Positions 14,037-61,906 of a stretch of DNA of 64,000 nucleotides are shown piece after piece; the first letter of the stretch is position 1, and every line of letters begins with the position of its first letter. The position numbers and the translations under genes are program-made. Under the pieces are notes generated by a model. It worked only from the letters and a program-made list of their open reading frames with translations, was not told the DNA's origin and searched no databases. This DNA comes from Marinomonas sargassi (lineage in GTDB: Bacteria; Pseudomonadota; Gammaproteobacteria; Pseudomonadales; Marinomonadaceae), in contig NZ_JAOVZB010000005.1 of the NCBI RefSeq assembly GCF_025716875.1, forward strand, positions 124,001 through 188,000, given 5' to 3'.

Positions 14037-14426
14037 CTAATGGCTAATCATCCAAGGCCGCTGTGATGGAAATACCTTACTACCATCTGGCAATAGCACC
14101 ACCTGCTGCTTTAAAGCACTTTGCTCTGGCCTATATTCAGAGCAACCACAACCTCGATGTCCCTTGCTCATAGCAAACTTTTGCTTTTCATCCGCTTCAG
14201 CCCTTGAATCTAGCGTAGAAATAATCGGACTATGACGAGCTTCTTCATTGGTCTCTATGGCTTTCTTAGAGTCAGGAGACATAGCCAGTACAGATGGAGC
14301 CACCAAGATAACAGGCTTACACTGTATTCCACACTCAGGGCATGGAACCGCTTCTCCCGCTTTATCTATGGCCACCAGCTCGTGAAACAAGCCATGTTCA
14401 GCACATTTAAAATCATAGATAGGCAT
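14037..14426 (-). CDS. fmdB: FmdB-type zinc-ribbon protein
   Basis: 129 residues. The N-terminus has the FmdB-family layout MPIYDFKCAEHG followed by a second pair PCPECG, a small zinc ribbon, although the first knuckle here is C-x2-H rather than C-x2-C. FmdB was described in Methylophilus methylotrophus as a putative regulator of formamidase and amide transport genes. The C-terminal half (with HRGCGCS, another Cys/His group) is unlike the usual low-complexity tail. It lies 16 bases behind fmdA and is the last gene of the amide operon. Whether it regulates or has another role is not settled by the sequence. Confidence 0.8.
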   Translation of the reverse strand: MPIYDFKCAEHGLFHELVAIDKAGEAVPCPECGIQCKPVILVAPSVLAMSPDSKKAIETNEEARHSPIISTLDSRAEADEKQKFAMSKGHRGCGCSEYRPEQSALKQQVVLLPDGSKVFPSQRPWMISH

Positions 14427-14442
14427 ATCAACTTACCTCCAA

Positions 14443-15672
14443 CTATTTATCTGCTGAACGAGGGATATCAATACTGCCATCTAAATGAATGTCCGGTCCC
14501 TCTGCATTAGGTTGCACATCAAAGTTAAAGATATCTGTTGGCAGCCATAATGTGGCACAAGCATTCGGAATATCTACTACACCACTTATATGGCCTTGCA
14601 CCGGAGCACAGCCAAGAATCGCATAAGCTTGTGCTTTACTGTAACCAAACTTGGTTAAGTAGTTAATGGCATTCAAACACGCCTGACGGTAAGCAACATG
14701 AACATCTAGATAATGCTGTGTTCCACCCTCATCAACGGATATACCTTCAAAGATCAAGTAATCATCGTATTTAGGTGTGATTGGACTTGGTTTAAAGATA
14801 GGGTTCTTAATAGCATATTTTTCCATTCCGCCCTTAATCAGGTTCACACGCATGTGAATCCAACCAGCCATTTCAATCGCACCACAGAACGTAATCTCGC
14901 CATCACCTTGGCTGAAGTGTAAGTCACCGACACTCAAACCAGCATCTTTTACATAAACAGGGAAATAGACTTTCGAGCCACGAGATAAATCCTTAATGTC
15001 ACAGTTACCACCATGCTCACGGGGCGGTACAGTTCTCGCACCTTCTGCTGCTGCATTATCCCTTTCCTCTCCTTTCATACGTCCCATATGTGCCGTATCT
15101 GCATAGGGTAAGGTTGCCAGCGCTGGCGTACGATCTGGCTCAGTATCATATAAAGCTTTTTCGCGAGTATTCCATTCTTCCAGCATGTCTTTAGAAGGCA
15201 AACAACCAATCAGGCCTGGGTGAATTAGACCTGCAAACTCAACACCCGGAATATGACGAGAGCTGGTAAACATACCCTTAAAATCCCAAATGGATTTTTG
15301 TGCTTCAGGAAAATGCTCCGTTAAAAAGCCACCACCATTTTGCTTAGAAAAGAAGCCATTAAAGCCCCACTGGCTGTCGTCGAAGGTACCAATATCAAGA
15401 ATATCAACGACCAATAAATCTCCCGGCTCAGCACCTTCAACACCGACAGGGCCAGATAAGAAATGCACCTGAGATAAATCAACATCACGGACATCATCGG
15501 CAGAATCATTGTCTTTAATTTGTCCACCAGTCCAATCGACACACTCAACAATAAAGTCATCTCCCGGCTTCACCATAGATACCATTGGGATATCAGGGTG
15601 CCAGCGATTATGGATCTTATCGTTGTCATAAGGGGATTCTTTCAAATTAACTTTAATAATTGTTTCAGCCAT
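14443..15672 (-). CDS. fmdA: formamidase (acetamidase/formamidase family)
   Basis: 409 residues, as in Methylophilus FmdA (~407). It hydrolyses formamide and some short amides to the acid and ammonia in the cytoplasm. Family segments are NRWHPDIP near the N-terminus, VEFAGLIHPGLIGCLPS, REHGGNCDIKDLSRGS, the SQGDGEITFCGAIEM stretch, and a C-terminal GVVDIPNACATLWLPT. ATG 15672 has GGAGA five bases upstream; an ATG at 15684 overlaps this site and is rejected. It sits with an unrelated amidase (AmiE) in the same operon, giving two hydrolases of different fold for small amides. Confidence 0.92.
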   Translation of the reverse strand: MAETIIKVNLKESPYDNDKIHNRWHPDIPMVSMVKPGDDFIVECVDWTGGQIKDNDSADDVRDVDLSQVHFLSGPVGVEGAEPGDLLVVDILDIGTFDDSQWGFNGFFSKQNGGGFLTEHFPEAQKSIWDFKGMFTSSRHIPGVEFAGLIHPGLIGCLPSKDMLEEWNTREKALYDTEPDRTPALATLPYADTAHMGRMKGEERDNAAAEGARTVPPREHGGNCDIKDLSRGSKVYFPVYVKDAGLSVGDLHFSQGDGEITFCGAIEMAGWIHMRVNLIKGGMEKYAIKNPIFKPSPITPKYDDYLIFEGISVDEGGTQHYLDVHVAYRQACLNAINYLTKFGYSKAQAYAILGCAPVQGHISGVVDIPNACATLWLPTDIFNFDVQPNAEGPDIHLDGSIDIPRSADK

Positions 15673-15780
15673 TGTTCTCTCCATTCGTCTTCAAAAATAA
15701 GATTGCTTATCGAGCTTTTGTCGCCAACCAGTTAATACAAAACGCCATATCGTTCGGATAAACTCACGATAGACTTCGCC

Positions 15781-16875: not shown

Positions 16876-17919
16876 CTATTGCTGTTGCTTTTCAATATCA
16901 GGGACAGGAAGGTTCCCCACAGGGCAATCCGCTACGCCAACCGTTTTACGGGTCAGTTTTTCAACCTCCTCTTGGGTTTTCTCTGCGTCTAAAACCCAGC
17001 TTCGGTAGAAGTCAAACGGGCAAGCTGCAACGCCTTTATCCCCATCGCCAGAGTTGTACACGCCTGTGTAACCACGATGTAAAAGCTTGAATAAGTGATT
17101 TTGAGATTGGTCGTTGGCGCGGGCATCACGAATCTGACTAACGGATAACTGAGCGTATTGAACGCCCATATCTTCCTCGCCACATTCTCCTAAAGTGCGG
17201 CCATCAAAGCCGATAATGGCCGAATGACCAAAGTAGGAATACACACCATCGAAGCCAGTAGCATTGGCCACCGCCACATAAGAGTTGTTCGCCCATGCCA
17301 TAGTTTTAGCCATCATGATTTGCTGTTCTTTGGCGGGGTACATATAGCCTTGGCAGCGAATAATAAGTTCAGCCCCTTTCATCGCACAGTCACGCCATAT
17401 TTCTGGGTAGTTACCGTCGTCACAAATGATGAGACTGATTTTTAAACCTTTGGGACCTTCAGTCACGTAGGTGGTATCACCGGGATACCAGCCTTCTATC
17501 GGGCACCAAGGAATACACTTACGATATTTTTGTACAATTTCACCATCGCTATTGATGAGCACTAGGGTGTTGTATGGTGCTTTGTTCGGGTGTTCTTCAT
17601 GGCGCTCACCTGTTAATGAAAATACCCCCCAAACATTGGCCGCCTTACAAGCTTCGGCAAAAACATTGGTCTCATCACCAGGAATGGTCGCGGCGGTTTC
17701 CATCATTTCATCACCGTCATACATGATCCCCATGGTGCTGTATTCAGGGAACACCACTAAATCCATACCCGGCAAGCCAATCTTCATCCCTTGGATCATG
17801 TCTGCAATTTTATTCGCGTTTTCGAGTACTTCTGCGCGGCTATGGAGTCGCGGCATTTTATAGTTCACTACCGCTACACCAACGGTATCTGGACTGCTTG
17901 AAATATCACCGTGTCGCAT
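16876..17919 (-). CDS. amiE: aliphatic amidase
   Basis: 347 residues, nearly collinear with Pseudomonas aeruginosa AmiE (346), starting with the same MRHGDISSS. The nitrilase-fold catalytic triad is at identical numbers: Glu59 in VVFPEYS, Lys134 in VQKYRKC and Cys166 in [11 protein letters not shown]. The enzyme converts acetamide, propionamide and similar short amides to carboxylate and ammonia in the cytoplasm. It follows the ABC transporter genes (19 bases after urtE-like), so uptake and hydrolysis are encoded together. The Pseudomonas regulators AmiC and AmiR and channel AmiS are absent; an ABC importer takes the transport role. Confidence 0.97.
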
Positions 17920-17938: not shown

Positions 17939-18628
17939 TTATACCGATAAATAGCCTTTGATTTTGTCTGTATCCACGTCATCCCTTAGGTCTTCATGAA
18001 TGAAGTTACCTTTATCAATGACGATAATCCGATCTGCTACTGCCATGGTGAAACTCAAAACCTGCTCCGAAACTATGATGGTAATGTCTCGCATCTTTTT
18101 GATTTCATTAAGAACATTAGCAATATCTTTAATAATGGAAGGCTGTATACCTTCTGTTGGTTCATCTAAAAGCAGGACTTTTGGATTGGTGACCAATGCC
18201 CGAGCGATAGCAAGTTGTTGTTGCTGACCACCCGACAAGTTGCCACCTTTTCTGTGGCGCATCTCATGCAAAACAGGAAATAAGGCATAGATGTCATCCG
18301 GTATGGCTTTCAACTTAGATACCCCCATACCTGTTTCGATATTTTCTTGTACGGTCAAATTTGGGAAAATCATTCGCCCTTGAGGGACATACGCCACGCC
18401 ATTTTCAACACGCTGATAGCTTTCGCATTTAGAAATATCTGTTCCATCGATATGAATGCTGCCGCCACTCAATGGCAATACCCCAATAAGGGACTTGAAC
18501 AAGGTGGTTTTACCCATGCCATTACGCCCCATGACGGCTAAGGTTTCATTTTTCTTCGCGGTGAAGTTCAAGCCATGGATTACTTCACTCTGCCCATAGC
18601 TAACTTTCAAATTCGCAACGTCCAACAT
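17939..18628 (-). CDS. urtE: urea/short-chain amide ABC transporter ATP-binding protein, UrtE type
   Basis: 229 residues from ATG 18628, which has GGAGG eight bases upstream; an in-frame ATG at 18643 overlaps the ribosome site. Walker A GRNGMGKTT, signature LSGGQQQQLAIARAL and Walker B VLLLDEPTEGIQP are all intact. The GIQPSI stretch is the usual mark of the UrtE/LivF group within HAAT-family importers. It works with the UrtD-type ATPase upstream. An 80-base spacer with degenerate direct repeats separates the two ATPase genes. The adjacent amidases indicate short amides as well as or instead of urea. Confidence 0.85.
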   Translation of the reverse strand: MLDVANLKVSYGQSEVIHGLNFTAKKNETLAVMGRNGMGKTTLFKSLIGVLPLSGGSIHIDGTDISKCESYQRVENGVAYVPQGRMIFPNLTVQENIETGMGVSKLKAIPDDIYALFPVLHEMRHRKGGNLSGGQQQQLAIARALVTNPKVLLLDEPTEGIQPSIIKDIANVLNEIKKMRDITIIVSEQVLSFTMAVADRIIVIDKGNFIHEDLRDDVDTDKIKGYLSV

Positions 18629-18693
18629 ACATTCACCCTCCAATAGGCTGCCATGCTCACTTGGCGAGTCATGACCTCAAAATTAATGGTCTG

Positions 18694-18735
18694 TTCTAAT
18701 GACCTGCTCTTAATGCCCTACTCTTAATGACCTAA
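18694..18735. repeat. degenerate 14-bp direct repeats in the urtD-urtE spacer
   Basis: Three consecutive 14-mers of the form TCTTAATGMCCTAC (18694-18707, 18708-18721, 18722-18735), each with one to three changes. Weaker copies follow toward 18670. The array includes the urtD-type stop codon. Confidence 0.6.
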
Positions 18736-19476
18736 GTAGACTTCAATGACTTTTGGATCTTTTTGTACTTCATCCATTTTGCCGGCAGCGAGAATTTTGC
18801 CTTGGTGCAATACCGTGACCTTATGGGCAATTCGCTCAACGAATTCCATGTCGTGCTCAATCACCAATACAGAGCGACCTTTACTGATGCTGTTTAGCAG
18901 CTCAGCAGTTTGCTCTCGTTCTTTCACACTCATACCTGCTACAGGCTCATCCAGCATAAGCAGCTGCGGGTCTTGAATTAGCAACATGCCGATCTCTAAC
19001 CACTGCTTTTGGCCATGGCTTAATAAAGCCGCTTCTGTCTCCATTTCACCGTCCAACATAATCAATTTGGCAATTTCATTAATTTTGCTAATCACCTTTT
19101 CGCTACGTTTGAAGAACAAGGAACCGAACACGCCACGGCCTTCTGGGTAAGACACTTCGAGGTTTTCAAATACAGACAAGTTTTCATAAATCGACGGAGT
19201 CTGAAATTTACGCCCCACGCCTCTACGAACAATTTCATGTTCAGATAAGGTCGTAAGCTCCTGATTCAAAAACTTAATACTCCCCGACGTTGATTTGGTT
19301 TTACCGCAAATCAAATCGAGCACTGTCGTTTTACCTGCCCCATTTGGACCGATAACCACGTGTAGTTCATTTTTATCGATATATAGGTTCAAGTTGTCGA
19401 CCGCCTTGAAGCCATCAAACGAGACGGTTAAATCCTCAATGCTGAGCGAGAAATCTGTATTAGTCATAGACGGCAT
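18724..19476 (-). CDS. urtD: urea/short-chain amide ABC transporter ATP-binding protein, UrtD type
   Basis: 250 residues with Walker A GPNGAGKTT and Walker B LLMLDEPVAGM. The ABC signature is the atypical LSHGQKQWLEIG seen in UrtD proteins instead of LSGGQ. The C-terminal helix KVIEVYLGH is also typical. ATG 19476 follows a strong GGAGGTG site. It pairs with the UrtE-type ATPase to energise the two permeases UrtB and UrtC. Compared with the second UrtD in this window (56668-57531) it lacks the ~30-residue N-terminal extension. Confidence 0.88.
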   Translation of the reverse strand: MPSMTNTDFSLSIEDLTVSFDGFKAVDNLNLYIDKNELHVVIGPNGAGKTTVLDLICGKTKSTSGSIKFLNQELTTLSEHEIVRRGVGRKFQTPSIYENLSVFENLEVSYPEGRGVFGSLFFKRSEKVISKINEIAKLIMLDGEMETEAALLSHGQKQWLEIGMLLIQDPQLLMLDEPVAGMSVKEREQTAELLNSISKGRSVLVIEHDMEFVERIAHKVTVLHQGKILAAGKMDEVQKDPKVIEVYLGH

Positions 19477-19531
19477 AGGTCACCTCCAAAATCATTCACA
19501 GCAAGAAAAACTACCCTAGGATTCAATAGAC

Positions 19532-20683
19532 TCATGAGTTCGTCTCCTTTAAACCAGGGGATGACAGTGGCAACTCAGGGTTCGCCATACCAAATGTTGA
19601 ACGTATTTTTTTGATGATGTCTGGGCTGTATTGGCTCCATAAACCCGCTAGTCCATTCGGGAAGAACATGACCACCGCAATAAAGGTTCCGCCCATCAAG
19701 AAGAGCCATAACTCAGGGAAGGATTCAGAAAAGGTCGTTTTACCGAAGTTAATCAATAAAGTGCCGTAAACCACACCAATTAGGGACATACGACCGCCCA
19801 CCGCAGCAAAAATGACCATTTCAATGGAAGGTACAATGCCCACAAAAGACGGAGACATGAAGCCCACTTGCAAGGTGAACATAGCGCCACCTAAAGCCGA
19901 CACGAAAGCTGCAAAGCAGAAGATGAAGATCTTAAAATTGGCCACGTCGTAGCCAGAGAAACGAACCCTATCTTCCTTGTCACGAATCGCTAACAGCAGG
20001 CGCCCGAATTTACTCGTTAATATGAAGCGAGACAGCAAAATTACGCCGATCAGCAAACCACAGTTAATGTAATAAAACAGATACTTGGCGCTGTCTGAAG
20101 TGATGTCCCAACCGTTCAATGTTCGTAAGTCTGTAATACCATTGATGCCGCCGGTATAACCTTGCTGACCAACAATCAGCACGGTCAAAATTACCGCTAT
20201 TACCTGAGTGATAATGGCGAAATACACACCGCCAACTCGACGCTTAAACATGGCAACACCAATGAAATAAGCAAATAGTGCAGGCAAGACTAGAATGGCA
20301 AGCAAGGTAAAACCAAAACTGCTGAAGGGTTCCCAAAACCATGGCAACGCCGTTATTTGGTTCCAATCCATAAAGTCTGGAATACCCGGTGTAGACTGAA
20401 TGGCAGTATTCTCTGGAGAAGAGGCTTCAAGCTTCAGGAACATGGCCATGCCATAACCACCAAGACCAAAGAAAATACCTTGTCCTAAGCTCAAGGTACC
20501 GCCATAACCCCACAACAGCACTAAACTAATGGCCGCAAAGGCGTAGGTTAAATACTTACCCACTAGATTCAGTCGGAAACCATCCAACAACATAGGAAAA
20601 ACAATCAGGATTATTACGGACAGCACCAGCAAGCCAATGGCTCCTGATTTACCCCCTAATAATTTGTCATATACAAAGCTCAT
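19532..20683 (-). CDS. urtC: urea/short-chain amide ABC transporter permease, UrtC type
   Basis: 383 residues with about 10 hydrophobic segments of the LivM/UrtC permease family. Recognisable parts are the LWGYGGTLSLGQGIFFGLGGYGMAM stretch (split across TM2-3; family motif SLGQG), the cytoplasmic RDKEDRVRFSGYDVANFK coupling loop, and a UrtC-like insertion with PDFMDWNQITALPWFW. ATG 20683 has GGAG six bases upstream; the TTG at 20695 is inside that site. It is followed after about 55 bases by the UrtD-type ATPase gene. Paralogous to 57528-58670. Confidence 0.88.
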   Translation of the reverse strand: MSFVYDKLLGGKSGAIGLLVLSVIILIVFPMLLDGFRLNLVGKYLTYAFAAISLVLLWGYGGTLSLGQGIFFGLGGYGMAMFLKLEASSPENTAIQSTPGIPDFMDWNQITALPWFWEPFSSFGFTLLAILVLPALFAYFIGVAMFKRRVGGVYFAIITQVIAVILTVLIVGQQGYTGGINGITDLRTLNGWDITSDSAKYLFYYINCGLLIGVILLSRFILTSKFGRLLLAIRDKEDRVRFSGYDVANFKIFIFCFAAFVSALGGAMFTLQVGFMSPSFVGIVPSIEMVIFAAVGGRMSLIGVVYGTLLINFGKTTFSESFPELWLFLMGGTFIAVVMFFPNGLAGLWSQYSPDIIKKIRSTFGMANPELPLSSPGLKETNS

Positions 20684-20767
20684 ATTCGTCTCCAAGGTGT
20701 ATTAATTCATCACTTTCAACATTGACGTTTCCCTAACGACCTTTAAAAGCCGTTAGGGAATAACAGA

Positions 20768-21691
20768 TCAACGGCGAACCTTACTGGCAAACAGGCCTTC
20801 TGGTTTAAACATTAAAATCAGTACTAGAACGAGCAAGGTGAAGACTTTGGCCATCGAGCCACTGATAAAGAATTCAAGAATGGATTGTGCTTGGGCGATA
20901 GAAAACGCTGAGGCAATGGTGCCAAATAAGCTGGCTGCGCCACCGAAAACAACCACCATAAAGGTATCTACTATGTACAGGGTTCCCGTTGTAGGGCCTG
21001 TAGAAGCAATGGTGGTAAACGCCGCACCGGCGATACCTGCGATACCGCAACCTAGAGCGAAGGTAAAACGGTCAATCTTTTTGGTATTGATACCAACCGC
21101 ACCACTCATAACGCGGTTTTGCGTAGTGGCTCTAACACGAAGCCCCCAGCTGGATTTGAACATCAAATAAAACACACCTAAGGTCACCACTATGGTGAGA
21201 CCTAAAACAAAAAGACCATTGATTGGAATATCTATCATGTCTGTTGCAGGGTAAGCGCCCAGCAACCACTCAGGTAATGTTGGGCTCACTTCACGAGCAC
21301 CAAAAATCGAGCGGAAAGATTGCTGCATAATCAGGCTCAAGCCCCATGTCGCAAGCAAGGTATCAAGCGGTCTTGAATAGAGGTGCCGTATCAAAACATA
21401 TTCGGCGAGATAGCCCATGGCCCCGGCAACAATAAACGCCAAAGCAATCGATAAGATGAAGTAATAGGGTAAAAATGCAGGAAAGAAACTTTCCGTCAAA
21501 GAAGACATTAGGTAAGTCGTATAAGCACCTACTGCCATAAACTCACCATGGGCCATGTTAATCACACCCATTTGTCCAAATATAATGGCAAGACCTAACG
21601 CCATTAAAAGAAGAACACTAAATAAACTAATGCCAGAGAAACCTTGCATGGCAAAGATGGCACCCAGTTCGCCGTAGCTGTATCCGCCCAT
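20768..21691 (-). CDS. urtB: urea/short-chain amide ABC transporter permease, UrtB type (short form)
   Basis: 307 residues, about eight membrane helices, LivH/UrtB family. The GQMGVINMAHGEFMAVGAYT segment and the loop with RVRATTQNRVMSGAVGINT are diagnostic. Unlike the second UrtB of this window (540 residues), it has no exported N-terminal helical-repeat domain and starts directly at the membrane part, as described for the amide transporter permeases FmdE/FmdF. That difference, with the amidase neighbours, points to short amides as substrate. Preceded by a 162-base spacer with a hairpin. Confidence 0.88.
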   Translation of the reverse strand: MGGYSYGELGAIFAMQGFSGISLFSVLLLMALGLAIIFGQMGVINMAHGEFMAVGAYTTYLMSSLTESFFPAFLPYYFILSIALAFIVAGAMGYLAEYVLIRHLYSRPLDTLLATWGLSLIMQQSFRSIFGAREVSPTLPEWLLGAYPATDMIDIPINGLFVLGLTIVVTLGVFYLMFKSSWGLRVRATTQNRVMSGAVGINTKKIDRFTFALGCGIAGIAGAAFTTIASTGPTTGTLYIVDTFMVVVFGGAASLFGTIASAFSIAQAQSILEFFISGSMAKVFTLLVLVLILMFKPEGLFASKVRR

Positions 21692-21853: not shown

Positions 21854-23143
21854 CTATTGGTAACCTGCTGGGAATGGATCAGGCTCGATTAGCTCAGAGG
21901 TATAAACAACGGTTGCTTGTCCGTCTTTATTCCATTGACCTACACGTGCTTTACTCCATAAGTGATGGTTTTCATGCAGTTTCACGTAGCCTTCAGGTGC
22001 TGTAGTCAATTCAATGTCGCCTTTTTCAGATTCAGCAACCACCTTGTCTACATCAAAGCTACCGGCACGCTCAACAGCGGCTTTCCATAACCAAGGACCA
22101 AGGTAGGCCGCTTGCGTCACGTCACCAATTACACTGTCTTCACCCCACATTTCTTTAAAGGCTTTTACGAATGCTTTGTTGTTGGCGTTGTCCTGACTTT
22201 GGAAGTACTTCATGATGGAATAGAAACCTTCAAGGTTTTCACCGCCGATACCAAGCACCTCATCTTCCGTAACGGAGATAGTTAGAAGTGTTTGTTTCTT
22301 AGAGTTAATACCTGCCGCTTTTAGCTGTTTAAACCAAGCTACGTTACTGCCACCTACAACGGCTGCATAAATAACATCTGGTTTGCGTAAACGGATTTTG
22401 TTGATTACAGAACCGAACTGAGTGTCACCCAGTGGCTTGTACTCTTCCCCTACGACTTTGCCACCAAGTACATTTTCAATGTGCTTACGAGCAATTTTCA
22501 TAGAGGTTCTTGGCCAGATGTAATCTGAACCTATGAGGTAGAATGTTTTCGCTTTTTTCTCTTTCGCAACCCAGTTCAATCCATCTAGAATCTGCTGTGT
22601 CGCTTCTTGACCTGTGTAGATAACGTTTTTAGATTGCTCTAAACCCTCATAGAAGGTTGGGTAGTAAAGTAGCCCATTTTCTTTTTCAAACACTGGCAAA
22701 ATGGCTTTACGAGAAGCGGAAGTCCAAGCACCGAATACCGCTGCTACTTTATCTTGCACTAACAATTTACGACTTTTTTCAGCGAAGGTTGGCCAGTCAC
22801 TGGCGCCATCTTCCTGAATGACCTTAATTTGTCTACCTAAGATGCCACCCATATCGTTAATTTGTTTGATGGCTAATTTCTCAGCCTGTTGAGCACCTGT
22901 TTCACTGATCGCCATGGTGCCAGTCAAGGAATGCAAAATACCGACTGTGACTGTATCGTCTGTAACCGCCAAGCCTGTCGTATTAACATCCGCGGCCGTC
23001 GCAAAGCCCATATGAGCGGCTAATACTAAGCTAACTGGAATAGTGCAAAGTGATTTCAAAAAAGAACGCGATTTACCTGTCACTTGAGTGACCGCCCTCT
23101 TATTGGTAGAGCTTTTAGCTGGTACTAATGAATAGATACTCAT
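21854..23143 (-). CDS. urtA: urea/short-chain amide ABC transporter substrate-binding protein, UrtA/FmdD type
   Basis: 429 residues with an unusually long N-terminal leader: the hydrophobic signal core (about residues 32-48) is preceded by some 30 polar and basic residues and is cleaved near the ATA-AD motif. The mature part follows the UrtA pattern: VGILHSLTGTMAISETG at the start, DWPTFAEKSRKLL, GAWTSASRKAILPV and a C-terminal VVYTSELIEPDPFP. It lacks the extra UrtA tail with cysteines seen in the second paralogue (60434-61717), consistent with an amide-binding FmdD-type protein. GAGGAG lies 7 bases before the ATG. First gene of the nine-gene minus-strand operon. Confidence 0.88.
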   Translation of the reverse strand: MSIYSLVPAKSSTNKRAVTQVTGKSRSFLKSLCTIPVSLVLAAHMGFATAADVNTTGLAVTDDTVTVGILHSLTGTMAISETGAQQAEKLAIKQINDMGGILGRQIKVIQEDGASDWPTFAEKSRKLLVQDKVAAVFGAWTSASRKAILPVFEKENGLLYYPTFYEGLEQSKNVIYTGQEATQQILDGLNWVAKEKKAKTFYLIGSDYIWPRTSMKIARKHIENVLGGKVVGEEYKPLGDTQFGSVINKIRLRKPDVIYAAVVGGSNVAWFKQLKAAGINSKKQTLLTISVTEDEVLGIGGENLEGFYSIMKYFQSQDNANNKAFVKAFKEMWGEDSVIGDVTQAAYLGPWLWKAAVERAGSFDVDKVVAESEKGDIELTTAPEGYVKLHENHHLWSKARVGQWNKDGQATVVYTSELIEPDPFPAGYQ

Positions 23144-23584
23144 TTCTTAACTCCTCGGTTGATTGACTGAATCCATTCTGCTCCGAACAACTCAAGCCAA
23201 CCATTAGAGGAATACTCAGGCCATCTAGTTAATTCACGCTATACGCTCAATTTTGAAAGTCTGATATACAAGGTATCTGTTTGTTTTACATAAGTTCTAT
23301 TCAGTCACATGAATTCCTAAGTACAGTAAAAAAGTACTGTGGAAGGGCCATTAGGAAAAAAAGGCATAAGATTTGCGTCTCCCCTTGTCTGTTTATGAAG
23401 AACCTCTTTATTAGCTAACGGTCATCAGACCTATTAAGAGAGATAGTCACCATAAACAAAAGAACAAACACTATGACTGAGGACGAGCAACAAAACTCAA
23501 GACAAGTCGGGAACGGATAACCTTTTGTTTTTCTGGAATGCCCTGTTTAAAGACAGGCTGTAAAAATAGAAAAAGGTTTGCTAA
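23144..23584. other. divergent regulatory region between amide operon and transporter-kinase gene
   Basis: About 440 bases with no gene. It must carry the promoter of the amide operon (minus) and of the kinase/regulator pair (plus). A sigma-54-like element (23362-23377) and a small dyad ACAGTA-n6-TACTGT (23323-23340) are the only structured elements I can point to. No sigma-54 element with correct GG/GC spacing was found on the minus strand. Confidence 0.6.
23362..23377 (+). promoter_or_regulatory. possible sigma-54 promoter of the transporter-kinase gene
   Basis: AGGCATAAGATTTGCG keeps GG and GC at the invariant -24/-12 spacing and the TTGC box but departs from TGGCAC at two bases. It lies about 210 bases before the start codon, a long leader, so it is only a candidate. 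Confidence 0.35.
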
Positions 23585-26500
23585 ATGAGTAAAGCGCCGC
23601 AAGACGTATTTCGAGTAAGAAGGCATTATAATCAATGGGTTGCTAACCAAACCCTAGAAGATTATGCGCTCAGATTCACCGCGAAATCTGCTCGTCGTTG
23701 GTCTATTTTTAAGGTCGCAATGACCGCCTTGGGTGCTATTTCTTTCTTGGCACTAGAAGCCATAGGAGGGGCAATTACCCTAAGCCACGGTTTCAGTAAC
23801 GCCATGGCCGCTATTATCGTTGTTAGCCTGATTATATTTCTCACTGGCATTCCCATCGCTTACTACTCAGCTAAACATGGCATTGATATAGACTTGCTAA
23901 CCCGTGGTGCGGGGTTTGGCTATATCGGCTCTACTGTTACTTCTTTAATCTACGCCTCCTTCACCTTTATCTTCTTTGCCTTAGAAGCCAGTATATTGGC
24001 GCTTGCGCTAGAGCTAACGCTCAACATCAACGTATCTATTGGTTACATCATCAGCAGTGTTATCGTCATTCCGATTGTGACCCACGGCATCACCTTGATT
24101 AACCGCTTCCAAGTGTGGAGCCAACCACTGTGGCTGGTACTTCAAATTCTTCCACTACTTTGTATAGCCTTTCAGTATGAGGAGGCGATAGCCCTGTGGG
24201 TGAACTATGAACCGGATCAAAACCCACTTTCGACAGAGCTAGAAACAGACCTAAGTATTTCTCAATCCAGCTTTTCTTTGCTCGCATTTGGTGCAGCTTC
24301 GGCGGTTTTGTTCTCTCTTATTGCGCAAATAGGAGAACAAGTCGATTTTTTACGATTCCTGCCAGAACAAGATAAAAACAACAAAAAGGCTTGGTGGGCG
24401 GCCGTCATCAGTGCAGGACCGGGATGGGTATCATTCGGGTTTATTAAGCTTTTGATTGGCTCATTTTTGGCCGTACTCTGTATTCAATATGGTCTATCTA
24501 GCGTACAAGCCGAAGACCCTAATCAGATGTATATGCTGGCATTTAGCTACGTCACTCAGTCAGAACAATTAAGCCTGCTATTACTGGGTGTGTTTGTCAT
24601 TCTTTCGCAGATAAAAATCAATGTCACCAATGCTTATGCAGGTTCAATTGCATGGTCAAACTTCTTTTCCCGCCTGACTTACAACCACCCAGGGCGAGTG
24701 GTTTGGTTGGTCTTTAATGTCATTATTGCCATTCTTTTAATGGAACTTGGCATTTATCGTGTTTTAGAAAGCATCTTAGGTGGCTATGCCATCGTCGCGC
24801 TAGCTTGGATTGGTTCACTGGTTGCGGATCTGGTCATCAACAAGCCCCTTGGCCTACGCCCCCAAAAGATGGAGTTCAAACGAGCTCATTTGTACGACAT
24901 CAACCCTGTTGGCATGGGTTCTATGATTGGCGCTTCTATTATTGGCTTTATCTGTCATTCAGGACTCTTGGGAGTCGAGTTACAGGCGCTATCTTCTTAC
25001 GTCGCTTTGTCGCTCACTTTTATACTCTCACCCTTGCTAGCTTGGCTAACCAAGGGAAAATATTACCTCGCCCGACCTGAAGTGATTTTCAACTCAGTAG
25101 AGGAGATACGTTGCAGCATTTGTCACTACCACTTTGAGCAAGAAGACATGACCATTTGCCCTGCTTACTCTGGCAATATTTGCTCATTATGCTGCTCTTT
25201 GGATGTGCGCTGTGGCGACATGTGTAAAACACGGTCGCGCCTCTCTGAACAATTTGTTGATGCTTTTGGTCGTCTGCTACCAACGTCATGGCTGCAAAAG
25301 GTCAACACACGAATGGGGCATTTCCTTTGGCTCTTCTTGCTCAACAGCATGGTCATTGCGGGTGTGCTCTTTCTGGTTTATGGGCAAATATTATTAGAAG
25401 AAAAACACATTAATAACGCGATTTTTGACGCTTCCATTTCCTCTGCTCTTATTAATGTATTTTTAATTTTGCTGATTGTTTTTGGGGTTGTGGCTTGGAT
25501 GTTTTCTTTAGCTAGAGAATCGAGACAAATTGCCCATAAAGAAACCGAAAAGCAAACCATGCGTTTGCAGGAAGAAGTAAAAGCCCACCATAAAACCGAC
25601 CTAGAGCTACAAAAAGCCAAAGAGTTAGCAGAAGCGGCCAACCTTGCGAAAAGCCGCTATCTTACGGGTATTAGCCATGAGCTTCGCTCCCCTTTGAATG
25701 CCATTATGGGTTATGCGCAACTGCTTGAAAATGCTCAGGATATTCCTTTTCATCGCCAAGGTGCCCTATCCACTATCAAGCACAGCAGTGAGCATTTAAC
25801 CGATATTATTGAAGGCTTATTAGATATCTCCAGTATTGAAGCTGGCACACTTCATATAGAAAGAAATGACGTTCAATTAAATGAGCTACTTGATCAGCTT
25901 GTAAGCATGTTTAGTATGCAGGCAAAAGGTAAAAATATTGCTTTCCACTATGAAAAGCTCACCCCTATTCCAAACACAGTTCATGCCGATCAAAAGCGCT
26001 TGCGCCAAGTTTTAATAAACCTTTTATCGAATGCCGTTAAATACACCCATACAGGCAGTGTTACTTTTACTGTCAGCTATCGAAATCAGGTGATGAAATT
26101 CAAAGTGATCGATACTGGTGAAGGTATTGAAAAAGACGCTTTAGAAAAAATATTTCTTCCTTTTAAGCGAATCATCAAACCCGGCCAGCCTTTTATCGCA
26201 GGAACAGGTTTAGGGTTAACCATTACACGCTTATTAATTGACATTATGGGGGGCGACTTAAAAGTCACTAGTCGCCCTAATCTAGGCAGTGAATTTAGTG
26301 TGTCATTCATGCTTTCTAGTATTGACCTCAGCTACCAAGAAAACCGTGAGTTAAAAGCCCAAACAGAGAAAAACATTCTTGGATACTATGGCAAAAAACA
26401 ATATATATTCACCGTGGATGACGACCCAACACAGCGCAGCTTACTATCAGAATTATTAGTACCCATCGGCTTTGATGTCTTCATCGCCAATAGCGGCATC

Positions 26501-27004
26501 GAATGCCTGAATATGCTGCCACACTGCCCATTCGATCCAGATATTTTCCTTTTAGACGTTACCATGCCGGGAATGAATGGCTGGGAGCTTGCAGAGCAGC
26601 TGAGAAAGCTTTACCCCAAGTCCAGCATTATCATGATATCCGCGAATGCCAACACTGTATCCCCATTGGATAAAAACCCCAGTAATGGCTATCTAATCAA
26701 ACCTCTAAAGCACAATGATTTGTTCAATAAGATTCAACAATGTACAGGCATTCGCTGGTGCTTTTCAGATGATCAACATGGCGAGCTATCAACCACACAG
26801 AAAAAAGAACACGACAACAACCTAGAGCTGCCTAGAACAGAAGACATAAACGAACTCATTGGTCTGGCGAAAATAGGTCACCTAAATGCCATTAGGAAAA
26901 AGATCGAATCAATGAAACCTTTTCCTCAATCTAAGGAAATACAGTCACTGTCAAGCCAATTCCAATTTCAGCAAGTAGTAGAAAAACTGGAGGAAATGCT
27001 ATGA
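23585..27004 (+). CDS. NCS1 transporter-hybrid histidine kinase fusion
   Basis: 1139 residues in one uninterrupted frame. Residues ~35-490 are a transporter-like region of the NCS1 (purine/cytosine permease) fold with 11-12 hydrophobic segments. Residues 510-547 hold a Cys-rich motif (CSIC, then ICP, CSLCC, CGDMC) that could bind metal. Two more membrane helices follow (about 575-595 and 620-642), then a coiled coil. The histidine kinase has its H-box at GISHELRSPLNAI (His698) and N, G1 and G2 boxes in NLLSNAVKY, DTGEGI and GTGLGLTI. A receiver carries Asp991 in LLDVTMPGMNG. The layout recalls CbrA, where an SLC5 transporter is fused to a kinase, but with a different transporter family. Likely senses or transports a nitrogenous ring compound or amide and signals to the regulator encoded next (ATGA overlap). 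Confidence 0.9.
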   Translation: MSKAPQDVFRVRRHYNQWVANQTLEDYALRFTAKSARRWSIFKVAMTALGAISFLALEAIGGAITLSHGFSNAMAAIIVVSLIIFLTGIPIAYYSAKHGIDIDLLTRGAGFGYIGSTVTSLIYASFTFIFFALEASILALALELTLNINVSIGYIISSVIVIPIVTHGITLINRFQVWSQPLWLVLQILPLLCIAFQYEEAIALWVNYEPDQNPLSTELETDLSISQSSFSLLAFGAASAVLFSLIAQIGEQVDFLRFLPEQDKNNKKAWWAAVISAGPGWVSFGFIKLLIGSFLAVLCIQYGLSSVQAEDPNQMYMLAFSYVTQSEQLSLLLLGVFVILSQIKINVTNAYAGSIAWSNFFSRLTYNHPGRVVWLVFNVIIAILLMELGIYRVLESILGGYAIVALAWIGSLVADLVINKPLGLRPQKMEFKRAHLYDINPVGMGSMIGASIIGFICHSGLLGVELQALSSYVALSLTFILSPLLAWLTKGKYYLARPEVIFNSVEEIRCSICHYHFEQEDMTICPAYSGNICSLCCSLDVRCGDMCKTRSRLSEQFVDAFGRLLPTSWLQKVNTRMGHFLWLFLLNSMVIAGVLFLVYGQILLEEKHINNAIFDASISSALINVFLILLIVFGVVAWMFSLARESRQIAHKETEKQTMRLQEEVKAHHKTDLELQKAKELAEAANLAKSRYLTGISHELRSPLNAIMGYAQLLENAQDIPFHRQGALSTIKHSSEHLTDIIEGLLDISSIEAGTLHIERNDVQLNELLDQLVSMFSMQAKGKNIAFHYEKLTPIPNTVHADQKRLRQVLINLLSNAVKYTHTGSVTFTVSYRNQVMKFKVIDTGEGIEKDALEKIFLPFKRIIKPGQPFIAGTGLGLTITRLLIDIMGGDLKVTSRPNLGSEFSVSFMLSSIDLSYQENRELKAQTEKNILGYYGKKQYIFTVDDDPTQRSLLSELLVPIGFDVFIANSGIECLNMLPHCPFDPDIFLLDVTMPGMNGWELAEQLRKLYPKSSIIMISANANTVSPLDKNPSNGYLIKPLKHNDLFNKIQQCTGIRWCFSDDQHGELSTTQKKEHDNNLELPRTEDINELIGLAKIGHLNAIRKKIESMKPFPQSKEIQSLSSQFQFQQVVEKLEEML

Positions 27005-27930
27005 CCTCTGCTCAACAGAAAAAAGACCTCGTTCTTGTAGTCGATGACTCTCCTGATTCTTTAGGCATGATAAACGACACACTAGATGAAGCAGGTCTTA
27101 CTGTGTTAGTCGCATTAGAGGGTAACCAAGCATTGAATATTACCCGCAGTATTACACCCGACATCATACTAATGGATGCTTTAATGCCGGGAATGGATGG
27201 TTTTGAGACCTGCCGTCAACTTAAAGCTCAGGCAAATCTCGAACATATCCCCATCATTTTCATGACTGGGTTGAGCGATACGGATAGCATTTTAAATGGC
27301 TTTGCAGCAGGCGGTGTCGACTACATACAAAAGCCAGTCAACAGCTCCGAGTTGCTGGTGAGGATTCAAGCACACCTCAGGAATGCCCGTCTTACTCAAA
27401 GTGCGCGACTGGCACTAGACGCATCAGGACAATTTCTCATCACTAGCAGTGAACAAGGTGAATTCAAATGGGCCACCCCTCAAGCCTACCAACTTCTTAG
27501 CGATGCAGGGGTAAGTGAGGATTGGTTAAAAGCCAATCTAAAAACGGAATTGGCTCCTTTCTTTTCAAGAAATTTTAATAGAAATAAAAACCTGAAATTA
27601 CAACAAGGTGATAAGACCATTGAATTGCACTTTATCAGCCAAGACAGCAAGGATGATTACTTATTCAAAATTGTCGATTTAGCATCACCCCAAGAAGAGC
27701 CAATTCTGAAAGACGCTTTTCACCTCACCACTCGAGAGGCTGAAGTACTCACTTGGATCGCTAGAGGTAAAAGTAATGCCGAAATTGCCATAATACTGAG
27801 CATCAGCCCGCACACTATTAATGCGCACCTTGCGCAAATATTTAAAAAACTCAATGTAGAAAATCGCACCAGTGCCGCGATTACCGCACTGGATAAAATA
27901 CGCAGTATTTCTGCAGCTCATCAGGTTTAA
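27001..27930 (+). CDS. response regulator, receiver plus LuxR-type DNA-binding domain
   Basis: 309 residues. The receiver spans about 10-125, with acidic pocket VVDDS and phosphoacceptor Asp59 in LMDALMPGMDG. A middle region of about 100 residues, beta-rich and unrecognised, links it to a C-terminal LuxR/FixJ helix-turn-helix (about 238-298; LTTREAEVLTWIARGKSN, then INAHLAQIFKKLNV). It overlaps the kinase gene by four bases (ATGA), so the two are translationally coupled and almost certainly partners. Its targets are probably the divergent amide operon and/or the downstream ABC operon, by position only. The middle region makes it longer than typical NarL-type regulators (~210). Confidence 0.9.
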   Translation: MTSAQQKKDLVLVVDDSPDSLGMINDTLDEAGLTVLVALEGNQALNITRSITPDIILMDALMPGMDGFETCRQLKAQANLEHIPIIFMTGLSDTDSILNGFAAGGVDYIQKPVNSSELLVRIQAHLRNARLTQSARLALDASGQFLITSSEQGEFKWATPQAYQLLSDAGVSEDWLKANLKTELAPFFSRNFNRNKNLKLQQGDKTIELHFISQDSKDDYLFKIVDLASPQEEPILKDAFHLTTREAEVLTWIARGKSNAEIAIILSISPHTINAHLAQIFKKLNVENRTSAAITALDKIRSISAAHQV

Positions 27931-28011: not shown

Positions 28012-28027
28012 TGGCACATCAATTGCT
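28012..28027 (+). promoter_or_regulatory. sigma-54 (RpoN) promoter of the peptide-type ABC operon
   Basis: TGGCACATCAATTGCT is an exact match to TGGCAC-N5-TTGCW, with the -24 GG and -12 GC correctly spaced. It lies about 200 bases before the ATG of the solute-binding gene in a 300-base gene-free stretch. RpoN-dependent transcription, often under nitrogen control through an NtrC-type activator, is implied. No clear NtrC dyad was seen upstream. Confidence 0.75.
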
Positions 28028-28237
28028 CTAGATAAACAGGTGGAGTAGACACTTTTTCTGACACTCTCCCCACACCTATTAATTAGCGCTATGAAGATAT
28101 CCCGAAAACTAGGACATGCTACTCCTTTGAGTTACGGCTAAACGAAGAAGTAGCGATCAATACAAGGCTTGGAAGCTTACCCTGCAAGCACAGTGTTTTA
28201 ACGCAACTTGAATTTTTATCCTGAAGGAGAACGTTTC

Positions 28238-29866
28238 ATGCTCAGCTCATTAAAGAAAAAAGTTCCGCACAAAATAAAACTCTACGGTCTTATCACCTTA
28301 TCTATAGCCAGCTTACTCGCCCCCCAAGTTAAGGCCGATACAAGACAAGAAACACTCATTGTTCTGTCTGGGGCTAGCATTAACAGCCTAGATATACATA
28401 GAACAGGCACCAACCGCCCTAGCTATCAAGTGGCCGTCAACATGTACGACCGACTTGTCTCGTTTGGCATAAAAGAAAGTGCTAACGGCAGCTTAAAATA
28501 TGACTCAAGCACCATCAAGCCAGAATTGGCAGAGAGCTGGGAATTAGTAGATGATGGTATGAGCTACCTCTTCCACATTCGTAAAGATGCCACCTTTTGG
28601 GATGGCTCACCTGTTACAGCAGACGATGTTAAATGGTCTTTTGATCGTGCTATCAGCTTAGGAGGCTTCCCAACCGTACAAATGAAAGCTGGCGGCTTAA
28701 CATCCCCAGAGCAATTTGTTGTCGTCGATAAACACACTTTTAAAGTCAAAATGTTTAAACCAAGCAAACTGACGCTTCCAGATTTGGCCGTTCCCATCCC
28801 TATGGTGATCAACTCAACGCTGGCTAAAAAGCACGCCACTAAAGACGACCCTTGGGCAACAGAATACCTGCATAAAACACCGGCAGGTGGTGGCGCATAC
28901 ATGTTAGAACGCTGGGTTCCAGGCCAGCAATTGGTTTATAAGCGCTTTGACGATTGGAAAAGTGGTGACCTACCTAAAATGAAGCGTGTCATTGTCCGCG
29001 AAGTACCAAGCTCTGCAACACGAAGAGCTTTGATTGAAAGAGGCGATGCGGATGTCGCATTAGGTCTTCCTTCTAAAGACGTTAAAGAATTAATGAGCTA
29101 TCCGTCATTAAAAGTGTCAAGTTCGACCATAGACAACACCATTCATGCTCTTGGTTTAAATATGAATTTTGAACCCTTTAGCAAAACCAAAGTTCGCCAA
29201 GCTATTGCTTATGCCATCCCTTATCAAGAAATCTTTGATGTAGCAGCGTATGGAATGGGTAAGCCAATGTGGGGGCGCGACACTGAAAAAGCGACATCCA
29301 TTCTTTGGCCTCAACCTTTCCCTTACAACACTAATCTAGAAAAAGCGAAAAGCTTACTCGCTGAAGCAGGCTACCCTAATGGTTTTGAAGTGCCTATTTC
29401 GATCAACTTAGGTTTTTCTCAATGGACAGAACCTACTGCACTCTTAATCCAAGAAAACTTGAAAGCCATTGGTATCTCCGCACCTGTTAATAAAATTCCG
29501 GGCGCTAGTTGGAGAACCAAAGCATTGGTGGAAAAAGGTTTAGAGCTGCATCTTAAAAACTTTGGTGGCTGGTTAAATTACCCAGATTATTACTTCTTCT
29601 GGGCTTATATCAAAGGGCATTTGTTTAACTCAATGAACTACGATAACCCTGAGATCAAATCCTTGGTAGATAGCTCGTTACACATGGAGGTTACCGACTC
29701 TCAATACGACACTAACGTAAAACGTCTTATTGATATTGCTACAGATGAAGTACCTATGATCCCTCTGTGGCAACCTTCTCTTGATGTTGTTATGAAGAGC
29801 AATGTCTCTGGCTATGTAAACTGGTTCCATCGCCAACTTGATATCCGAGCTTTCTCTAAGGAGTAG
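28238..29866 (+). CDS. ABC transporter solute-binding protein, family 5 (peptide/nickel type)
   Basis: 542 residues from ATG 28238, which has GGAG nine bases upstream; an in-frame TTG at 28208 lacks a site. A signal peptide (core LYGLITLSIASLLA, cleavage near VKA-DT) precedes a family 5 binding protein: LAESWELVDDGMSYLFHIRK, FWDGSPVTADDVKWSFDRA and FSKTKVRQAIAYAI are the standard conserved stretches. These proteins bind di- and oligopeptides, nickel complexes, or other small organic molecules. First gene of a four-gene ABC operon behind a sigma-54 promoter. Ligand not predictable; a nitrogen source is likely from the promoter type. Confidence 0.9.
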   Translation: MLSSLKKKVPHKIKLYGLITLSIASLLAPQVKADTRQETLIVLSGASINSLDIHRTGTNRPSYQVAVNMYDRLVSFGIKESANGSLKYDSSTIKPELAESWELVDDGMSYLFHIRKDATFWDGSPVTADDVKWSFDRAISLGGFPTVQMKAGGLTSPEQFVVVDKHTFKVKMFKPSKLTLPDLAVPIPMVINSTLAKKHATKDDPWATEYLHKTPAGGGAYMLERWVPGQQLVYKRFDDWKSGDLPKMKRVIVREVPSSATRRALIERGDADVALGLPSKDVKELMSYPSLKVSSSTIDNTIHALGLNMNFEPFSKTKVRQAIAYAIPYQEIFDVAAYGMGKPMWGRDTEKATSILWPQPFPYNTNLEKAKSLLAEAGYPNGFEVPISINLGFSQWTEPTALLIQENLKAIGISAPVNKIPGASWRTKALVEKGLELHLKNFGGWLNYPDYYFFWAYIKGHLFNSMNYDNPEIKSLVDSSLHMEVTDSQYDTNVKRLIDIATDEVPMIPLWQPSLDVVMKSNVSGYVNWFHRQLDIRAFSKE

Positions 29867-29871
29867 TAAAC

Positions 29872-31756: not shown

Positions 31757-31758
31757 GT

Positions 31759-60289: not shown

Positions 60290-60372
60290 ACTCCACGTAT
60301 TGAAGGGTGTATTGCAAAGAAGGCTAGAACAACAACATTCTTTTAAGGAAAAACTAGAACAGCAGATGGGTT

Positions 60373-60408
60373 AAAAAAGGCCCTCTAACTACAGAGAGAA
60401 AGAGGGCC
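60373..60408 (-). terminator. intercistronic attenuator/terminator between urtA and urtB
   Basis: On the minus strand GGCCCTCT (60408-60401), a 14-base loop, AGAGGGCC (60386-60379), then six Ts (60378-60373). Complete rho-independent layout inside the operon. It should let most transcripts end after urtA and a fraction read on, giving excess binding protein. Confidence 0.8.
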
Positions 60409-60433
60409 AACATCAGCATAGGAAGTGCTTAAC

Positions 60434-61717
60434 TTAGTAGTTCTGACCAGAACACGCTTTAGTTTTCGTGTTGTAGTTACCGCACTTAACTGGCGCAGTC
60501 CAATCAGAAATTAGGTCTTTAGAACCTGGTAGGAAATCAGACCATGCGTCACCCGCAACAACACCATCTGTTGACCAAACCACTTCGAATTGACCGTCGT
60601 CTTGAATCTCACCGATTAGAACAGGCTTGCTCAAGTGGTGGTTTTTGTTCATTACCGCAACACCACCAGTTAGGTTAGGTGTTTCTTGACCAATCATTGC
60701 TTGCTCAACCGCGTCTACGTCAGTAGTACCCGCTTCAGTAACAGCGTTAGCCCACATTTTGAAACCGATGTAAGTCGCTTCCATTGGGTCGTTAGTTACA
60801 CGGTTTGCATCTTTAGTGAAGGCTTTCCACTTAGTGATGAACTCTTCGTTTGCATCGCTTTCAACACTTTGGAAGTAGTTCCATGCTGCTAGGTGACCTA
60901 CTAGAGGGCCAGTGTCTAGACCAGAAAGTTCTTCTTCACCTACAGAGAAGGCTACAACTGGAATGTCTTCTGCAGAGATACCTTGGTTACCCAATTCTTT
61001 GTAGAAAGGTACGTTTGCGTCACCATTGATAGTAGAAACAACCGCTGTTTTCTTACCTTCGCTACCGAATTTCTTAACATCAGAAACGATTGACTGCCAA
61101 TCAGAATGACCGAAAGGTGTGTAGTTGATCATGATGTCGCTAGCCGCAACGCCTTTTGCTTTTAGGTAAGCTTCAAGGATTTTGTTCGTTGTACGTGGGT
61201 AAACGTAGTCAGTACCCGCTAGAACAAAACGCTCAACACCTAGTTCGTTGATCAAGTAATCAACTGCTGGGATAGCCTGTTGGTTCGGCGCAGCACCTGT
61301 GTAGAAAACGTTTTTAGAAGATTCTTCACCTTCGTACTGTACTGGGTAGAACATCAAACCGTTCAACTCTTCCAATACTGGTAATACAGACTTACGAGAT
61401 ACAGAAGTCCAGCTACCGAAGATAACGTCAACTTTCTCTTGCTCAAGAAGTTCACGACCTTTCTCAGCAAATAAAGGCCAGTTAGATGCAGGGTCAACAA
61501 CCACTGCTTCTAGTTTCTTGCCTAGCAAGCCACCTTTTTTGTTCTGATCTTCAACCATCATAAGAACAGTGTCTTTAAGAGTTGTTTCAGAAATCGCCAT
61601 CGTACCTGATAGAGAGTGAAGTACACCAACCTTGATTGTGTCCGCCGCCATAGATGGCAGGGCAATTAAAGTCGCACCAGAAAGAGCAATCGCAGAAGCA
61701 AGCGTTTTAAGTTTCAT
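60434..61717 (-). CDS. urtA: urea ABC transporter substrate-binding protein UrtA
   Basis: 427 residues with a signal peptide (LASAIALSGATLIALPSMA, cleavage after MAA). The mature protein shows VGVLHSLSGTMAISETTLKD, DPASNWPLFAEKGRELLEQ, IFGSWTSVSRKSVLPVLEEL and the C-terminal WTAPVKCGNYNTKTKACSG with two cysteines, all typical of UrtA. Periplasmic urea binding. Codon use looks more biased than in neighbours, as for a highly expressed gene. A LysR gene is 189 bases upstream on the same strand. Confidence 0.95.
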   Translation of the reverse strand: MKLKTLASAIALSGATLIALPSMAADTIKVGVLHSLSGTMAISETTLKDTVLMMVEDQNKKGGLLGKKLEAVVVDPASNWPLFAEKGRELLEQEKVDVIFGSWTSVSRKSVLPVLEELNGLMFYPVQYEGEESSKNVFYTGAAPNQQAIPAVDYLINELGVERFVLAGTDYVYPRTTNKILEAYLKAKGVAASDIMINYTPFGHSDWQSIVSDVKKFGSEGKKTAVVSTINGDANVPFYKELGNQGISAEDIPVVAFSVGEEELSGLDTGPLVGHLAAWNYFQSVESDANEEFITKWKAFTKDANRVTNDPMEATYIGFKMWANAVTEAGTTDVDAVEQAMIGQETPNLTGGVAVMNKNHHLSKPVLIGEIQDDGQFEVVWSTDGVVAGDAWSDFLPGSKDLISDWTAPVKCGNYNTKTKACSGQNY

Positions 61718-61906
61718 TTGTTAAACCGTCCTATTGAGATTGAGAAGTTGATTAAAAACTTGGTAATAAGAAGTCAAAGAATTTTCCCTTCCTTCGTATC
61801 AGTGACTTAAGTATTAAAAAAGCACGGCAAGAAAGGTATGCGCGAAACACCCTAGAGGAGTACGTCAAATGACGCATATGTGATAATTAATATTAGATAG
61901 GTATTA

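Follow-up and report, generated by a model that had tools for sequence, protein, structure and literature searches.

A transporter-fused histidine kinase family encoded beside urea and amide operons, a probable sensor of these nitrogen sources

Sensor kinases with a transporter as input domain are already known. CbrA, CrbS/R and RpuS/R are described in the available passages as SLC5/STAC sensor kinases (PMC13022988, PMC9100948, PMC5715377, PMC7096432), and those on a Kuenenia ammonium sensor kinase describe an Amt fold joined to a kinase (PMC5764959). Operons that combine a formamide/urea ATP-binding cassette (ABC) transporter with a formamidase are described, in the parts available, for B. 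japonicum (blr0969-0973; PMC3098086) and P. veronii (PMC13209695), as is the Klebsiella UTS urea system (PMC5506382, PMC13060141). The term "histidine kinase" does not occur in the main text of these last four papers, and their available passages name no kinase. Here we analyze a hybrid histidine kinase, HK1, and its LuxR-type regulator, RR1, encoded by Marinomonas sargassi next to an operon of the same kind as those three, as far as the passages describe them. Both genes lie in a stretch of 64,000 nucleotides (assembly GCF_025716875.1, contig NZ_JAOVZB010000005.1, positions 124,001 to 188,000 of the forward strand), hereafter the window.

Like the CbrA-type kinases, as described in the parts available, HK1 joins a full-length secondary transporter to a (hybrid) histidine kinase and follows the same transceptor logic. 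Unlike them, it carries an NCS1-type domain, a module of eight cysteines and two extra helices in place of the SLC5 transporter and the four-helix STAC domain. It resembles the Kuenenia kinase of the passages in using the fold of a nitrogen-source transporter as input, but there the fold is Amt and the signal ammonium. We know of no link between the Kuenenia Amt-kinase and a urea or amide operon. Our analysis indicates that HK1 and its relatives are probably transporter-derived kinases that sense urea and/or short aliphatic amides (formamide, acetamide) and regulate the urt, fmd and ure genes.

The family is large and in many members proteobacterial, with at least 575 confirmed stretches, not dereplicated, in named genomes. 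Counts were made on the best 80 loci, some of which end at contig ends and 17 of which come from the single genus Bradyrhizobium. In this set, a Urt-type binding protein is encoded in 72 of the 80 loci (62 amide-type, 10 canonical), FmdA in 53, AmiE in 22 and UreC in 5, while urtB-urtE homologues adjoin the kinase in 62 to 68 loci, fmdB-like homologues are found in 16, and a LuxR-type regulator in 72. Since the relatives adjoin genes for both uptake and breakdown of urea and amides, the family probably detects these nitrogen sources, and it very probably controls the urt, fmd and ure operons. The locus is tied to an amide operon and plausibly encodes a nitrogen-source sensor, as an original prediction from the DNA alone had proposed.

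The arrangement also bears on another possibility, namely that the transporter domain serves as an anchor in the membrane or as a relay and that the signal comes from docking of loaded UrtA or of the working Urt ABC transporter (co-sensing). The Urt-type protein at 72 of 80 loci fits this, as does the position of urtA, which lies upstream of the kinase on the opposite strand in 70. We consider it unlikely, given that two loci (L188, L177) hold kinase, regulator, fmdA, amiE and a stand-alone NCS1-type sister of the input domain with no Urt match in the stretch, that a paralogue at a urease cluster (L181) likewise has no urt match in its stretch, and that the residues of the presumed pocket, described below, show no variation among the fused or the stand-alone forms.

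Co-occurrence within the genus agrees with the linkage. In 35 same-genus genomes, the family and urease alpha occur together in 29 and are both absent from 6 (G003, G004, G025, G027, G029 and G034), giving a Fisher p of 6e-7 in which shared ancestry is not corrected for; here a lone 18.9-bit match below the cut-off in G034 was called absent and a gene in two pieces in G011 present. Seven of the 29 genomes (G001, G005, G007, G012, G017, G022 and G028) have kinase and urease at unlinked positions. Close HK1 orthologues (82-84% identity) and FmdA are found together in exactly three of the 35 genomes (G000, G009, G024) and neither is found in the other 32 (Fisher p 1.5e-4). The M. sargassi genome itself encodes a paralogue 50% identical to HK1, directly behind ureG, whose regulator retains the recognition helix of the family. 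The best reading is that HK1/RR1 is the amide-cluster copy and the ureG-linked paralogue the urea copy.

The original prediction had placed a nucleobase-family transporter in the first ~490 residues of HK1, fused to two helices, a kinase and a receiver. Pfam finds HisKA (residues 688-754), HATPase_c (802-909) and receiver (941-1050) domains and, with the phosphorylation residues of HK1 (His698, Asp991) and of RR1 (Asp59) in place, HK1 has the features of a hybrid histidine kinase and RR1, with receiver and GerE helix-turn-helix, those of a NarL/LuxR-type response regulator. The tail behind the receiver of HK1 (residues 1055-1139; 26747-27001) has no Pfam match. The domain search that had been suggested recovered the kinase domains but not PF02133 in HK1 itself: no Pfam family at all matches the N-terminal ~490 residues, PF02133 gives nothing in HK1 at E<=10 and nothing in the M. 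sargassi genome at E<=0.001, and neither phmmer with the transporter domain nor an alignment profile compared with PDB sequences returned anything usable. Two of four stand-alone relatives scanned do match PF02133 above its cut-off of 23.5 bits (L055, 42% identical, with 31.9 bits and L185 with 37.7 bits), and the other two (L142, L060) do not match. A pairwise comparison in hhalign of the family profile with a profile of six NCS1 proteins, whose E-value is not calibrated against a database, gave a probability of 99.7 over 415 columns. The predicted model of the domain (predicted local distance difference test, pLDDT, 87.8) has CodB as its nearest fold (Z 36.0 over 397 residues, root mean square deviation 3.3), followed by Mhp1 (Z 30.1, 28.0 and 27.0), the next family at 24.5, and SLC5-type folds below the NCS1 ones (e.g., 5nva, Z 23.2). 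On the strength of the relatives' PF02133 matches, the profile-profile alignment and the comparison of the predicted fold, we assign the N-terminal domain as an NCS1-related transporter. Pfam detects no SLC5 (SSF) or STAC domain in HK1 at E<=10. The suggestion that the fusion parallels that of CbrA in another transporter family is supported.

The substrate residues of NCS1 proteins, which the prediction had proposed to compare, are only partly retained. HK1 shares with CodB and Mhp1 the fold, the topology and the asparagine of transmembrane helix (TM) 8 (CodB Asn280, HK1 N346), with residue roles as given in the available passages of PMC9379551 and PMC4195764. In an alignment at <20% identity, on which this residue mapping depends, the sodium-site (Na2) ligands T278/T279 of CodB fall on K344/I345, and the aromatic pair that holds the ring of its substrate is altered, with the TM3 tryptophan W108 replaced by F130 and the TM6 phenylalanine F204 by L245; CodB also has no fused kinase. 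Because its sodium ligands are replaced, we file the domain as an NCS1-related branch rather than as an NCS1 sodium symporter. E134 lies four residues past F130, as Gln121 of Mhp1 does past Trp117, and E134, G250-E251-Q252, K344-I345-N346 and N349 are invariant in the aligned stand-alone relatives and in a family alignment of 58 rows, from which L110 (internal stop), L100 and L131 had been removed and which certain near-duplicate loci never entered. Judged from these residues, the pocket would suit a small polar amide and would lack sodium coupling. It is likely that the NCS1-type domain itself binds the urea or amide signal.

Stand-alone relatives of the domain are annotated as cytosine or allantoin permeases, which, together with the NCS1 relationship, would favor sensing of another NCS1 substrate (cytosine, allantoin or hydantoin). 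Seven of the nine loci of stand-alone sisters that were viewed are nevertheless urease or formamidase clusters, in which the gene follows ureG (in G333 and in a urease cluster of Klebsiella), precedes ureEFG (Acinetobacter) or adjoins fmdA (Moraxella, Tsukamurella, L188 and L177); together with the altered aromatic pair, this setting makes a nucleobase-type ligand quite improbable. The ligand list of the prediction therefore holds for urea and short amides, which are favored, but not for nucleobases, hydantoin or allantoin. The gene behind ureG in the Klebsiella pneumoniae urease cluster (L185, 6956-8563), annotated as a cytosine permease, probably encodes a urea/amide transporter.

Eight cysteines of HK1 (positions 510, 513, 525, 533, 536, 537, 543 and 547) form the Cys-rich motif, for which about nine had been predicted. 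The motif is readable in 79 of the 80 loci and the kinase H-box in 74. It had been taken for a linker belonging to the fusion, an idea contradicted by the stand-alone relatives, which already carry four (L142, L185, L186) or eight (L188, L060) of the cysteines; in the actinomycete forms L189 and L190 the motif is lost. A quick maximum-likelihood tree built from the transporter domain places the fused proteins in one clade (64 rows, Shimodaira-Hasegawa-like approximate likelihood ratio test 96), whose nearest neighbors are the eight-Cys stand-alone pair (joining branch 87) and then the four-Cys forms. Given this order and the modules of the stand-alone relatives, the Cys module was probably on the transporter before the kinase fusion. 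Amide and urea contexts change several times on the tree with no single clean split, as drawn by a quick method with long outgroup branches. In one genome (G192), the NCS1-Cys-two-helix input is also found fused to PAS-kinase-receiver and to PAS-GGDEF-EAL modules (L180, 6849-10520; L179, 8023-11841), in 19-kb stretches from which urea/amide marker genes are absent.

Folded alone, the module reached a pLDDT of 74.3. We make no assignment as a zinc finger by fold, given that the RING/PHD/FYVE-like matches, at E 0.42 or worse, are not significant; the module is nevertheless likely to bind zinc. One could suppose from the conserved cysteines and these weak matches that the module is a metal or redox sensor and that the urea link is indirect, e.g., through nickel or zinc supply. 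This appears very improbable, as the module is also present on transporters with no kinase, and the fmd and amiE neighbors encode formamidase and AmiE-type enzymes that need no nickel.

The divergent urtA and kinase promoters share an inverted repeat, ATACGTCA-NN-TGACGTAT, assembled from the top dyads of a dyad search over 48 urtA-kinase intergenic regions, which remained of 66, the window's included, once duplicates were left out; the dyad TACGTC occurs in 39 of these 48, with 4.3 expected. We take the 7-2-7 geometry of the repeat to match that of NarL sites. In 59 of 65 promoters scored (70 less those with regions >650 bp), the repeat is matched at 12 or more of 16 positions, compared to 0.7 of 65 for mononucleotide shuffles and 6 of 630 random stretches from the same loci, although it was derived from the same promoters. 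Independent tests of the repeat weigh more for this reason. The 80 loci contain 86 sites that score >=17, and every one falls in the 650 bp ahead of a kinase, urtA, urtC or fmdA gene (fmdA in 11 cases). Loci that had no part in building the motif (L141, L177, L182, L183, L188, L112 and L123) have strong sites too. The kinase-free stand-alone loci L142, L185, L186 and L190 have no strong site.

Of the 29 family-positive genomes of the genus, 27 have a site that departs from the repeat at no more than one position in the 10 kb ahead of ureC (an exact one in 24), including genomes with an unlinked kinase; it was confirmed directly before urtA in G001 and G007, with a weaker one there in G013. The site before urtA2 in the window is the sole match with no mismatch to the 16-base pattern in the M. 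sargassi genome, which has a weak site before the urease operon as well. Among 44 further urtA genes of the class (the 30 best-scoring matches with loci and 14 picked by hand, with whole stretches scanned), sites of >=15 bits are nearby in none of the 33 from family-negative genomes and in 5 of the 11 from family-positive ones, and none lies within 650 bp upstream of the 30 best-scoring genes. In G064, where the kinase is linked to urtA, a 22.0-bit site lies farther upstream than 650 bp. In three genomes (G183, G093 and G251; loci L260, L285 and L286), the repeat lies ~1.4 kb upstream of a canonical urtA, the kinase being on another contig, so that some gene ahead of urtA may be the first target. 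The recognition helix R-T-x-x-K-H is present in 71 of 72 family regulators, the remaining one (L116) having an unreadable tail, and the regulator is the candidate repeat-binding protein.

Several observations weigh against this interpretation, in addition to the co-occurrence statistics uncorrected for shared ancestry, the Bradyrhizobium share of the locus set and the derivation of the repeat from the promoters scored. The actinomycete stand-alone loci L187 and L189 have no urea or amide genes nearby, four kinase loci (L184, L129, L107 and L125) have no strong repeat site, and 6 of the 11 further urtA genes from family-positive genomes have none nearby. Conversely, G027, with neither kinase nor urease, has two exact sites, G016 has a second exact site away from urt and ure, and G004, which lacks the kinase, has a site with one mismatch. 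The two G027 sites (L246, 8552 and 8786) are 234 bp apart beside a transposase-like open reading frame (ORF). At the locus studied here, the repeat is missing from the HK1/urtA1 promoter and from the two nearest orthologous loci, and the RR1 helix is changed (SPHTINAHL; H/N-T-I-N-A-H in RR1 and the two orthologues), so that the repeat cannot be assigned as the target of RR1. We read the altered helix and the absence of the repeat as insulation of two paralogous systems in one cell from each other. No palindrome is common to the three HK1-type promoters; a conserved block at ~23221-23247 is a candidate only.

In the mechanism that we propose, the NCS1-type domain would bind a small amide from outside, and its conformational change would reach the kinase by way of the Cys module, probably with zinc, and the stalk of two helices. 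Under modulation by its own receiver, the kinase would then phosphorylate the LuxR-type regulator, which would bind the 16-18 bp inverted repeat upstream of urtABCDE and fmdA, or of the urt/ure cluster in urea-type members, and turn on the genes for uptake (urt) and for hydrolysis (fmd or ure).

The features of the window are collected in Table 1. The HK1 and RR1 ORFs share four bases (ATGA), an overlap noticed at the outset that is real in the window but not conserved, being possible in 10 of 76 family loci. The ClpB-like ATPase between amiE and fmdA, encoded on the minus strand like both of them, is presumably AmiB of amidase operons, and a homologue adjoins amiE in 8 of the 80 loci too. The two flanking operons to which the sensor had been tied fared differently: the tie to the amide operon is supported, whereas the ABC operon downstream of RR1 (28208-33444), proposed to be RpoN-dependent, was rejected as a conserved partner. 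Its binding protein is found in 0 of the 80 loci, and the two nearest orthologous loci, covered to ~6 kb beyond the regulator, contain none of the four of its genes that were tested. One exact -24/-12 sigma-54-like match, TGGCAC-N5-TTGCT at 28012-28027, upstream of this operon, is weak evidence for RpoN control, with 0.21 expected by chance. Regulators that lack an AAA+ domain would not be expected to activate sigma-54 promoters, and the ABC operon is probably incidental. Strict sigma-54 sites are present in 1 of 48 divergent urtA/kinase promoters, and a scan for sigma-70 promoters gave fewer matches than in shuffles.

Table 1. Positions in the window of HK1, RR1 and the urea- and amide-related genes
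Feature	Position	Strand	Basis or remark
HK1, transporter-fused hybrid histidine kinase, 1139 aa	23585..27004	+	ORF list, Pfam
NCS1-type transporter domain of HK1, residues 24-491	23654..25057	+	hhalign, predicted model, fold comparison
8-Cys module of HK1, residues 510-547, CxxC-x11-C-x7-CxxCC-x5-C-x3-C	25112..25225	+	
Two long helices of HK1, residues 576-606 and 612-658, into kinase	25310..25558	+	Secondary structure of model
HisKA (His698 in SHELRSP box) and HATPase_c of HK1	25646..26311	+	Pfam
Receiver of HK1, Asp991 in LLDVTMPG	26405..26734	+	Pfam
RR1, 309 aa, receiver (Asp59) and LuxR-type helix-turn-helix (GerE)	27001..27930	+	Pfam
urtA1, urea/amide-type substrate-binding protein, divergent from HK1	21854..23143	-	TIGR03407, 511.9 bits (cut-off 492.75)
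urtB-urtC-urtD-urtE, amide-type ABC transporter	17939..21691	-	UrtE over TIGR03410 cut-off; ORFs
amiE, aliphatic amidase	16876..17919	-	NF009802, 707.8 bits
ClpB-like single AAA ATPase ORF between amiE and fmdA	15781-16854		
fmdA, formamidase	14443..15684	-	NF045496, 780.4 bits
fmdB-like zinc-ribbon protein	14037..14426	-	Cluster position; name from annotation of records such as L186
Second urt operon, canonical-type	55967-61717	-	
urtA2, of canonical-type urt operon	60437..61717	-	7-2-7 repeat ~143 bp upstream
GTACGTCAAATGACGCAT, best 7-2-7 repeat match of the window, upstream of urtA2	61860..61877	+	

Beyond M. sargassi, the family is present in 31 of 56 relatives (own genome included), in 18 of 369 genomes of the class (among them its own, a genome in which just a stand-alone form occurs and another with a fragment) and in 527 of 72,556 plasmid records, 342 of them from Klebsiella. 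On the one Klebsiella plasmid viewed (L141), amiF-urtEDCBA and the kinase and regulator genes are divergent.

Urea and small amides rank among the major sources of nitrogen. The Helicobacter pylori chemoreceptor TlpB binds urea. To our knowledge, no sensor kinase for urea or small amides has been described, and none was among the matches listed in our searches of open-licence literature, nor was any account of an NCS1-type kinase with such a Cys module, operator and urea/amide regulon. While SLC5/STAC and Amt kinases are established, the NCS1-type case with its predicted operator appears to be new, and it would join the few transporter folds used as kinase inputs. The family offers a concrete candidate for a urea/amide sensor, its ligand class, operator and regulon all predicted, across many proteobacteria. 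It is found in rhizobia, in Pseudomonas and on plasmids of Klebsiella, and the available literature passages discuss the urea system of these plasmids without a regulator. From the lysine at the sodium site and the carboxylate and amide residues in the pocket, it is possible, if slightly on the doubtful side, that the stand-alone sisters are unrecognized NCS1-derived, sodium-independent transporters of urea or short amides, one of which was taken over by a kinase on a single occasion and became the dedicated urea/amide sensor of many proteobacteria, including that of the Klebsiella urea-uptake plasmids. As these sisters persist, the step from transporter to receptor would be directly testable.

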